Shown piece by piece: positions 39,062-60,644 of a stretch of DNA of 64,000 nt; the stretch's first letter is position 1; the number at the start of each line of letters is the position of its first letter. The notes beneath the pieces are model-generated. The model saw nothing but the letters and a program-made list of their open reading frames with translations. It did not search any database and was not told the DNA's origin. The position numbers and the translations under genes were made by a program. Source of the stretch: Stanieria cyanosphaera PCC 7437 (lineage in GTDB: Bacteria; Cyanobacteriota; Cyanobacteriia; Cyanobacteriales; Xenococcaceae). Location of the stretch: contig NC_019748.1 in NCBI RefSeq assembly GCF_000317575.1, positions 3,182,501 through 3,246,500 on the forward strand, read 5' to 3'.

Positions 39062-39440
39062 TTTGATATTAAATTAAAAATCTTTACTACAATATCGATC
39101 ATAAGAGCGATTGGCTGATCGTAGTGACTGATTTATTGATGGGTGATAGTAATTAACAATTATCATCAAGATTAATTAAGCTAATTATTACTCGAAATCA
39201 AAAGACAAAAGTAAGAGAGAATTTTTTTACCAGAGCGAGGCTCTTAGCGATCGCTCCTGGGCGAGATCGCATTTTGATTACATTCTTGAGGGGCTGTCTG
39301 CGGAATTTATTTCCGCAGTTTATAAGCCCCGTCCGCTTCTGGCAAACCAACCAACTACCGCAGCGATAATAATAAAAGCTATCTGTCTCCCTTCGGGTTC
39401 GTCAGTTGCTCATGGGGGAAACCCCCAAGACCGCACTGAC
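39062..39440. other. Region containing 171-bp block copy A
   Basis: No plus-strand gene supported. 39062-39230 is AT-rich and featureless. From 39255 it shares TCCTGGGCGAGATCGCATTT with 39991-40012, and from 39277 it is the repeated structured block. Confidence 0.5.
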
Positions 39441-39449
39441 TCACCAGTT
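39277..39449 (-). repeat. Structured 171-173-bp repeat block, copy A
   Basis: It matches 40048-40220 base for base except one T/C at about 39284. It holds a two-tier hairpin (outer GGGGCT/AGCCCC, inner CTGCGGAA/TTCCGCAG) and a GGGGG-AAA-CCCCC hairpin, and runs through the last two codons and stop of the minus-strand coiled-coil gene. Confidence 0.85.
39404..39437. repeat. 34-bp G5/C5 hairpin repeat, copy 1
   Basis: Core TCATGGGGGAAACCCCCAAGA, bracketed by CAGT...ACTG. The identical 34 bp occurs at 40175-40208 and, inverted, at 60552-60585. Confidence 0.85.
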
Positions 39450-39734
39450 CTTCAATTCACCAAATTTTTCCGTGATTTCAGGGATTTTCTGAACAGCAGT
39501 TTCGACATTTTTAATTCGAGCATCAATAGCTTTGATATCACCTCTTACATCAGCAATTTCTTGTTTGAGTTCGGATTTAACCTCAGTAATTTCCTGTTTG
39601 AGTTCAGATTTAACCTCAATAATTTCCTGTTTGAGTTCGGATTTAACTGTATCAATCTTGCGATCTAATTGGTTAAAGCGATCGCTAATAAATTCTTTTA
39701 ATTGTTGAAGGTCTGTATTAGATGTCGTGGTCAT
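39441..39734 (-). CDS. Small coiled-coil protein, cassette A
   Basis: 97 residues, charged and almost entirely helical, with no signal or membrane segment. Residues 1-28 (MTTTSNTDLQQLKEFISDRF, NQLDRKID) and the last 20 (QKIPEITEKFGELKNW) match cassette B. The middle carries three in-register 11-residue repeats (EVKSELKQEIT type) encoded by 33-bp repeats at 39555-39653, which cassette B lacks. I do not recognise a function. The stop lies inside the 171-bp block. Confidence 0.7.
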   Translation of the reverse strand: MTTTSNTDLQQLKEFISDRFNQLDRKIDTVKSELKQEIIEVKSELKQEITEVKSELKQEIADVRGDIKAIDARIKNVETAVQKIPEITEKFGELKNW

Positions 39735-39768
39735 AGCTATAATTGAGTTAAGAATTTTAGTAAATTGA

Positions 39769-39807
39769 GGAAACCTAATGCTTTATTGTCAAAAGGTTTC
39801 CTTTTTT
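39769..39807 (+). other. Hairpin with T-run upstream of cassette A gene
   Basis: GGAAACCT (39769-39776) pairs with AGGTTTCC (39794-39801), followed by six T on the plus strand. An equivalent GGAAACT/AGTTTCC hairpin with a T-run precedes cassette B (about 40474-40510). The T-run is on the strand opposite to the gene, so it could terminate plus-strand transcripts. Confidence 0.6.
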
Positions 39808-40047
39808 ATTGTATGTCTTTGATAATAAGATTTAATTAGGAAGAGGTGATGCCGAAGCCACTGCTAGTCTTCGAGGCACGCTTACTTCGTCGCTCTTCGA
39901 GTCCTTGTCCACAAACCGCATTTTAAAAATAAAACAGTAAGATGGATAGCGATCGCGACGCAAGGAGCGAACTCCTCGCTACGCGCCTCGCTCCTGGGCG
40001 AGATCGCATTTTAAGAGATAATTTTTTACTAGAGCGACGCATTTTTA

Positions 40048-40220
40048 ATTACATCCTTGAGGGGCTGTCTGCGGAATTTATTTCCGCAGTTTATAAGCCC
40101 CGTCCGCTTCTGGCAAACCAACCAACTACCGCAGCGATAATAATAAAAGCTATCTGTCTCCCTTCGGGTTCGTCAGTTGCTCATGGGGGAAACCCCCAAG
40201 ACCGCACTGACTCACCAGTT
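40048..40220 (-). repeat. Structured repeat block, copy B
   Basis: Second copy of the block at 39277-39449, 771 bp away, with one mismatch. A fragment (TTTTTAATTACATCCTTGAG) recurs at 40611-40630. Confidence 0.85.
40175..40208. repeat. 34-bp G5/C5 hairpin repeat, copy 2
   Basis: Identical to 39404-39437. Lies four bases past the stop of the cassette B gene. Confidence 0.85.
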
Positions 40221-40439
40221 TTTTAACTCGCCAAATTTTTCTGTAATTTCAGGGATTTTTTGAACAGAAGATTCTATATTACTCATTCTTTTGTCTATGC
40301 CTTGTAAATCAGACTCAAGTTTAATTATTCTTTTATCTAACTCATTGAACTTATCATCAATTTTTTTATCTAATTGATTAAAACCATCTTGAATAAATTC
40401 TTTAAGCTCTTGAATATCTGTATTTGATGAAGTAGTCAT
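40212..40439 (-). CDS. Small coiled-coil protein, cassette B
   Basis: 75 residues, helical and charged. It is a paralogue of the cassette A protein: shared N-terminus (SNTD-x-Q-x-LKEFI) and an identical C-terminus (VQKIPEITEKFGELKNW). The middle (DKFNELDKRIIKLESDLQ) is shorter and lacks the 11-residue repeats. Upstream bases through GCTATAATTGAGT-CAAGAATTTT are also shared with cassette A. Function unknown. Confidence 0.7.
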   Translation of the reverse strand: MTTSSNTDIQELKEFIQDGFNQLDKKIDDKFNELDKRIIKLESDLQGIDKRMSNIESSVQKIPEITEKFGELKNW

Positions 40440-40723
40440 TGCTATAATTGAGTCAAGAATTTTAATTAATTGGGGAAACTAGCGTGCTTTGTCACAAATG
40501 AGTTTCCTTTTTTATTTTACGTCTGTGTCCAAAAAATAATTAACTACTGACTCATAAGATTGCGCAGTGCTGTGCTTTTGGAAAGATATCCCCAAGCTAC
40601 GCGCCTTGCGTTTTTAATTACATCCTTGAGGAGTTGTTTTTCAATAAAAAAAGGCAAAAAGAAAAGTGAAAACTCTTCCCTTTGCACTATAGTAATTGTA
40701 AATATATAAATTATGCTTAAAGT

Positions 40724-59402: not shown

Positions 59403-60644
59403 ATGACTGAACGTGCCTACAAGTTTCGCTTTTACCCAACACTATCGCAAGAAAATCTCTTGCGACGGACAATGGGTTGTGTGCGTTTGGTCTACAACAA
59501 AGCTTTGGCTGCAAGAACAATCGCTTGGTATGAAAAACAAACAAGAATTGATTACAAACAAACTTCTAGTTTGTTGACCAGTTGGAAGAAAACCGAAGAA
59601 CTTGATTTTCTCAATGAGGTTAGCTGCGTACCTTTGCAGCAATGCTTGAGGCATTTGCAAAAAGCCTTTTCTAACTTTTGGGGCAAAAGAGCTAAATATC
59701 CTCGTTTTAAGAAAAAACGTAATGGTGGTTCGGCAGAATTTACCAAGTCGGCTTTTAAGTACCGAGATGGTAAAGTTTGGCTGGCTAAGTGCAGCGAACC
59801 ATTGAATATCGTTTGGTCGAGGTATCTTCCACAAGGATGCGAACCATCGACTGTTACTGTTAAACTCGAACCTTCTGGTAGATGGTTCGTTTCTTTGTTG
59901 GTTGATGATTATACCGTAGAAGTACTTCCACCAACTGAGCAAAAGATTGGATTGGATGTTGGTGTTTCTAGTCTGCTTAGTACCAGTGATGGTGACAAGA
60001 TAGCTAATCCCAAGCATTTTAATCGGCTGTATCAGAAGCTTGCGTGCGCACAAAAGGAACTGAGTCGGAAAACCAAAGGCTCTAGTAACCGAGAGCGCGC
60101 GCGACTTAAAGTAGCCAGAATACACGCCAAAATTAAAGATGCTCGTACCGATTTTCTGCACAAATTGACTACTCGCTTGGTTCGCTTGTATAGCTTGATT
60201 GCTATTGAAGACTTGGCGGTGAGCAACATGGTTAAGAATCGCAAGCTGGCTCGTTCTCTTAGCGATGCTGCCATCTGTCAAATGTTTCGTCAACTTGAAT
60301 ATAAATGTGAGTGGTACGGGCGAAAATTGGTCAAGATTGACCGCTTTTTTCCTAGCTCTAAACGATGTCACCATTGCGGTTTTGTAATGGATAAGTTGCC
60401 TTTGAATATTCGCAGTTGGGATTGCCCTAGCTGTAAGACAACAGGCATTGATAGAGACATCAACGCTGGAAAAAATATACTCGCTGCGGGACTCGCAGTG
60501 ATTGTCTGTGGAGCGGACATAAGACCCGATAACCATAGTGTTAAAGGAGCGAGTGCGGTCTTGGGGGTTTCCCCCATGAGCAACTCGCGTAGGCAGTTGC
60601 GAAAAACCGCGCACAGCGGAAGGAAACAGAAACCTAAGTCGTGA
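59403..60644 (+). CDS. tnpB: IS200/IS605-family TnpB RNA-guided nuclease, intact
   Basis: 413 residues. The N-terminal helical/WED region opens MTERAYKFRFYPTLSQENLL. RuvC residues are D185 (IGLDVGV), E269 (AIEDLAVSNM) and D352 (DRDINAGKNI), with zinc ribbon C322/C325...C341/C344. All catalytic positions are present. No tnpA lies nearby, so it is an orphan or non-autonomous element. The last ~35 residues beyond the usual core (ASAVLGVSPMSNSRRQL) are encoded by a 34-bp hairpin repeat. It is only distantly similar to the broken tnpB at 13.3 kb. The 390-codon frame on the opposite strand is a shadow. Confidence 0.93.
   Translation: MTERAYKFRFYPTLSQENLLRRTMGCVRLVYNKALAARTIAWYEKQTRIDYKQTSSLLTSWKKTEELDFLNEVSCVPLQQCLRHLQKAFSNFWGKRAKYPRFKKKRNGGSAEFTKSAFKYRDGKVWLAKCSEPLNIVWSRYLPQGCEPSTVTVKLEPSGRWFVSLLVDDYTVEVLPPTEQKIGLDVGVSSLLSTSDGDKIANPKHFNRLYQKLACAQKELSRKTKGSSNRERARLKVARIHAKIKDARTDFLHKLTTRLVRLYSLIAIEDLAVSNMVKNRKLARSLSDAAICQMFRQLEYKCEWYGRKLVKIDRFFPSSKRCHHCGFVMDKLPLNIRSWDCPSCKTTGIDRDINAGKNILAAGLAVIVCGADIRPDNHSVKGASAVLGVSPMSNSRRQLRKTAHSGRKQKPKS
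60552..60585 (-). repeat. 34-bp G5/C5 hairpin repeat, copy 3 (inside tnpB)
   Basis: Reverse complement of 39404-39437, identical over 34 bp. Here it is bracketed by GCGAGT/ACTCGC and is read as the TnpB C-terminus. Confidence 0.85.

Follow-up and report, generated by a model that had tools for sequence, protein, structure and literature searches.

A small dispersed hairpin repeat has probably cut the membrane anchor from two neighbouring coiled-coil genes in Stanieria cyanosphaera

Introduction

Small palindromes can be found inserted inside protein genes, as is the case for the Rickettsia palindromic elements. The GTAG- and CGTC-tagged REPs and REPINs, mobilised by RAYT transposases, are likewise short palindromes, and are thought to be mobile as single-stranded DNA via Y1 transposases (PMC3116915, PMC3733652). 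Very small mobile repeats of cyanobacteria (Elhai et al. 2008, Genome Res 18:1484) are cited in PMC3733652 as untagged REP-like repeats. A hairpin insert of 50 nt also occurs in T4 gene 60, in which the stop codon directly follows the take-off codon and the GGA codons are matched (PMC5009743).

Here, we analysed two adjacent units of Stanieria cyanosphaera PCC 7437, each consisting of a small coiled-coil gene and a block with hairpins. The locus as a whole is best explained, and in our judgement very probably so, by the insertion of a tiny hairpin (R1) that severed the membrane anchor of the protein, after which the damaged 3' end was copied between paralogs.

Results

Organisation of the two units

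The window, i.e. the whole stretch of 64,000 nucleotides that was analysed, holds two units on the minus strand, each made up of an ORF followed by a 173-nt block (Table 1). The blocks (39277-39449 and 40048-40220, minus strand) are identical at 172 of 173 positions, with the sole mismatch at block position 166, whereas the units are only 74-90% alike, piece by piece, outside the block. Aligned in register, units A and B differ every few bases until 6 bp before the stop codon, where identity sets in abruptly and, one base excepted, runs to about 10 bases beyond the second hairpin (R2). A previous sequence-only reading of this DNA had described tandem minus-strand units with near-identical blocks and diverged genes (ORFs of 97 and 75 codons), a two-tier hairpin after the stop codon, and hairpins upstream of both genes, all of which we could confirm.

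Table 1. Features of the two units and of their flank, in window coordinates
Feature	Position	Strand	Basis
Gene A, truncated coiled-coil ORF, 97 aa	39441..39734	-	ORF list and uninterrupted 119-aa homologue in G001
Gene B, truncated coiled-coil ORF, 75 aa, older paralog from a different subclade	40212..40439	-	ORF list and tree
R1 of unit A, 55-nt mobile hairpin, TGAGTCAGTGCGGTCTTGGGGGTTTCCCCCATGAGCAACTGACGAACCCGAAGGG	39389..39443	-	Copy collection, covariation, fold (-25.1 kcal/mol)
R1 of unit B, identical to that of unit A	40160..40214	-	Block alignment
Severed C-terminal membrane anchor of gene A, RQIAFIIIAAVVGWFARSGRGL and stop	39320..39388	-	Translation, frame joining
Severed anchor of unit B, identical to that of A	40091..40159	-	Block alignment
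R2 of unit A, second dispersed hairpin, ACGGGGCTTATAAACTGCGGAAATAAATTCCGCAGACAGCCCCTC, overlapping the last codons of the former ORF	39288..39332	-	Alignment, fold
R2 of unit B, identical to that of unit A	40059..40103	-	Block alignment
5' leader of A, -10-like TACAAT, then hairpin GGAAACC...GGTTTCC	39769..39813	-	Sequence, fold
5' leader of B, -10-like TAAAAT, then hairpin GGAAACT...AGTTTCC	40474..40519	-	Sequence, fold
Pre-existing flank 3' of the UDP-glucose dehydrogenase gene, AAGGATGTAATTAAAAACGC, recurring after each block	40608..40637	-	Comparison with G001

The leader is common to the gene family. A -10-like TAnAAT is followed by a hairpin whose arms differ yet appear to stay complementary in relatives, and which is possibly a stabiliser of the mRNA 5' end.

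The block contains the former 3' end of the gene

The block consists, in this order, of R1, a severed anchor of 22 codons and R2. The first codon of R1 is the stop codon (TGA) of both genes. In a frame shifted by one base from that of the ORF, the central part of the block encodes the anchor and its stop. When R1 is removed, a single frame results in which EITEKFGELKNW runs directly into RQIAFIIIAAVVGWFARSGRGL, joining ELKNW to RQIAF. In G001, a genome of the same genus, the homologous ORF is uninterrupted and 119 aa long, and the stretch ELKNW[RK]Q is uninterrupted in more than 20 family members. The former ORF takes its final codons from R2, which has many dispersed copies and an inner stem that covaries by eye; a likely R2 remnant forms the last codons of the ORF in G001 as well.

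The former anchor is strongly hydrophobic, with a Kyte-Doolittle maximum of 2.29, compared with 0.25 and -0.17 for the truncated proteins. Between the anchor and its G001 counterpart, 9 of 66 sites differ with one amino-acid change (dN 0.02, dS 0.79). This coding-type pattern indicates that the anchor was translated and under selection at the protein level through most of the divergence from G001, and that R1 arrived late. Both ORFs show low dN/dS against relatives, over short stretches and for a history most of which precedes the truncation. Over the whole protein, no Pfam or NCBIfam family was found at its curated cut-off, and only coiled-coil noise was returned: DUF1664 barely passes for A (35.4 against 34.6) and fails for B and the G001 homologue, as is typical of coiled coils, and sll0565_fam scores 20 against a cut-off of 50. 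Judging from these sequences, loss of the anchor should release the coiled coil from the membrane, and the truncated proteins are presumably made and free of membrane attachment.

R1 is a dispersed and covarying hairpin

The distribution of R1 was surveyed with a 27-nt core pattern, using the reversed pattern as control. Of the 27 genomes of the family, 22 contain the core and none yielded a match to the reversed control, showing that the pattern is not due to chance. Across the phylum, 33 of 386 sampled genomes contain the core. One of them, G067, from another family of the same order, has 114 copies in a 7.7-Mb genome, far above the numbers elsewhere. The genome of Stanieria itself has only 8 sites with at most 3 mismatches to the core, 2 of which lie inside the cassette described here. 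Another occurrence in the window, at 60552-60585 on the plus strand, lies within the 3'-terminal part of a transposase gene of the IS605 OrfB type that is multicopy in the same genome.

Around the fixed core, the outer stem varies among copies yet remains paired, while a bulged base is constant. In 50 distinct outer sequences, giving 350 pair cells, standard pairs were found in 301 cells; shuffled sequences averaged 205 and never exceeded 227, and about a third remained when the partner was slid along. The variants include GATGCAG/CTGCATC, GGACGGG/CCCGTTC and GCAAAAGT/ACTTTTG. Kinship among copies can by itself beat shuffles, but so many different paired stems would be hard to explain otherwise than by conserved pairing. 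The sequence-only reading had allowed for a merely passive repeat, scattered without coiled-coil genes and without covariation. R1 is indeed scattered away from such genes, but its strong covariation marks it as a mobile element that is structured, and not as a shapeless repeat.

Insertion sites of R1

The flanks of 23 insertions share only an approximate TGG directly before the insert, with G in 20 cases at position -1, G in 17 at -2 and T in 16 at -3. The insert length ranges from 54 to 58 nt. Where the uninterrupted gene is known, namely in the coiled-coil family, an IS630-type transposase and a transposase of G010, no target duplication is seen; this statement rests on few gene insertions, the other direct-repeat flanks being located in heptanucleotide arrays. 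Apparent seven-base target duplications at some copies were set aside, as these copies lie in such arrays or in repeated stretches.

The IS630-type transposase gene is split by R1 between W and LN (KHGSW/LNMVE) in both G004 and G016. Another transposase gene of G010 carries R1 on the other strand and reads through it in frame. At L098, L101 and L103 of G010, an amplified transposase family contains this antisense, in-frame copy of 54 nt, which suggests that the transposase tolerates the 18-residue insert. No R1 was found near Y1_Tnp genes in the 1.5-kb flanks of the 17 loci of the Stanieria genome.

History of the two genes and of the locus

In the tree, A groups with G001, G006 and a G010 gene, and B groups, with weaker support, with genes of G009, G014, G018 and G006. 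In its leader and N-terminus, B shares 86-88% identity with the genes of G009 and G014. A recent tandem duplication of A and B was rejected, as their upstream parts fall into different subclades. Membership in different subclades combined with a single mismatch in the block indicates that the two genes are paralogs of long standing and that their 3' ends were homogenised recently, most simply through gene conversion between neighbours. Of the options raised from the sequence alone, "recently inserted or gene-converted" was right, and so was "mobile tail".

In G001, the corresponding locus between the UDP-glucose dehydrogenase gene (99% identical protein) and a HAD gene contains no cassette, and the G001 homologue of the coiled-coil gene sits elsewhere, at the edge of a rearrangement. 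A 20-bp flank is present once at this empty site and three times in the window. A further fragment that had been noted at 40611 does exist, but a third cassette was rejected, since the same sequence is the flank of the empty site in G001.

Proposed course of events

The product of the ancestral gene would have been a short coiled coil carrying a membrane anchor at its C-terminus. R2 would have landed first, at the 3' end of the gene, and become the last codons of the ORF, an R2-like sequence being shared with G001. R1 would later have inserted exactly between the last Trp codon of the coil (NW) and the first Arg codon of the anchor (RQIA). Because R1 starts with TGA, the protein ends at that Trp, and the 22 anchor codons are left as untranslated DNA. 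The stretch of R1, anchor, R2 and about 10 bp would then have been copied by recombination between the two neighbouring, much older paralogs; copying of the damaged 3' end would explain why the genes are less well conserved than the apparently non-coding block. The movement of R1 itself probably involves a folded single strand of DNA, with insertion on the 3' side of (T)GG and no duplication of the target.

Alternative explanations

The sequence-only reading proposed a small coiled-coil protein with an attached structured RNA or mobile tail. A dedicated structured RNA or 3' UTR kept by selection would suit the covarying stem of R1, as well as its identity in A, B and a diverged G010 paralog whose coding flanks differ. 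However, more than 20 family members do without R1, and copies are by no means always 3' of coiled-coil genes: 3 of 111 distinct copies adjoin one, and the other 108 lie away from them. Furthermore, the central part of the block once coded for protein and has substitutions of the coding type, and a scan of the locus against Rfam gave no match. The block is mostly the gene's own severed C-terminus and its hairpins are dispersed repeats, so this explanation, largely refuted by the uninterrupted homologues, is very improbable. We give slightly less credence still to ribosomes bypassing R1, so that the full-length membrane protein is still made. The layout is that of T4 gene 60 (PMC5009743) and of mitochondrial bypass elements, with a stop directly after the take-off codon (TGG TGA in A, B, G010 and G004; TGG TAA in G016) and then a hairpin of 50-60 nt, and in A, B, G010 and one IS630-type copy the frame continues intact past R1. 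Against this, the take-off codon TGG and the would-be landing codon GGG are unmatched, unlike the GGA codons of gene 60, the insert varies in length, many R1 copies lie outside genes, and recent insertion explains the intact anchor.

A further question concerns how R1 came to occupy the same codon repeatedly. In the diverged paralog of another genus, G010 C258, an identical R1 sits at the same codon, and the anchor that follows is this gene's own and differs from that of A and B. Among the 111 copies, no other site has the stem variant GTCAGT/ACTGAC together with the tail of A, B and C258. A single clade of interrupted genes was rejected (p-AU 0.0016, in a tree of 75 columns with long branches), making one old insertion unlikely, and an ancestral insertion shared within the coiled-coil family was discarded on these grounds. 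Since same-codon insertions are found in two gene families, R1 has either a real target preference or spreads between homologous sites; the visible TGG rule is too short to predict them. It is conceivable, albeit rather doubtful, that R1 is site-specific or homing, with an extended target (AAYTGG/AGRCARAT in the coiled-coil gene; SW/LN in the IS630-type gene) or with copying between homologous sites across genera. By the same tentative account, R1 would re-insert at the same codon of the same family across genera while its outer stem changes by paired substitutions. The identical R1 with its unique stem variant, shared by the Stanieria genome (G000) and G010 although the genes concerned are not one clade, is consistent with homing, as are the related stems at the shared codon in G004 and G016. 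On the other hand, the 23 flanks have little beyond TGG in common, the gene cases lack an obvious longer common motif, only two gene families are involved, and the tree is limited by its 75 columns and long branches. Homing refines the insertion and copying set out above and does not exclude it. In another member of the coiled-coil family, G010:C269 (L080, 1789-1900), a different dispersed repeat of 69 nt lies four bases 5' of the R1 site; it is in frame and adds about 23 residues between coil and anchor.

Discussion

R1 is apparently a new, undescribed family of a known kind, the tiny mobile repeats of cyanobacteria. Like small untagged hairpin repeats of this phylum, it is dispersed and structured, and inserted into repeats or genes. 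A text search of the literature for the R1 core found no relevant paper. Among known systems, the repeats of Elhai et al. are similar in being tiny dispersed cyanobacterial hairpins that lie inside other repeats and genes and carry no tag. R1 shares with REPs and REPINs the short palindrome, but it has no GTAG or CGTC tag, its foot being TGAR..GAACCC or AGCG..CAAGA (111 copies), it is absent beside the Y1 genes of its own genome, and it interrupts genes. The repeats described in 2008 are reportedly shorter than the 55 nt of R1.

R1 also differs from a MITE, as its ends (TGAG.../...AGGG) are not inverted repeats and its gene insertions show no duplication. With the Rickettsia elements it has in common that the antisense copy in the G010 transposase, like the 69-nt repeat of G010:C269, is read through in frame; however, the R1 copies of the cassette truncate the protein at once, and the sequences are unrelated.

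These findings describe a one-step conversion of a membrane-anchored protein into a probably soluble one by a tiny mobile hairpin. They also illustrate that, through recombination between neighbours, coding sequence that is dead can seem better conserved than the adjoining gene. Repeated insertions at the same codon provide a handle on target choice by elements that are too small to encode anything, and G067, rich in the R1 core, is a good place to seek the mobilising enzyme.
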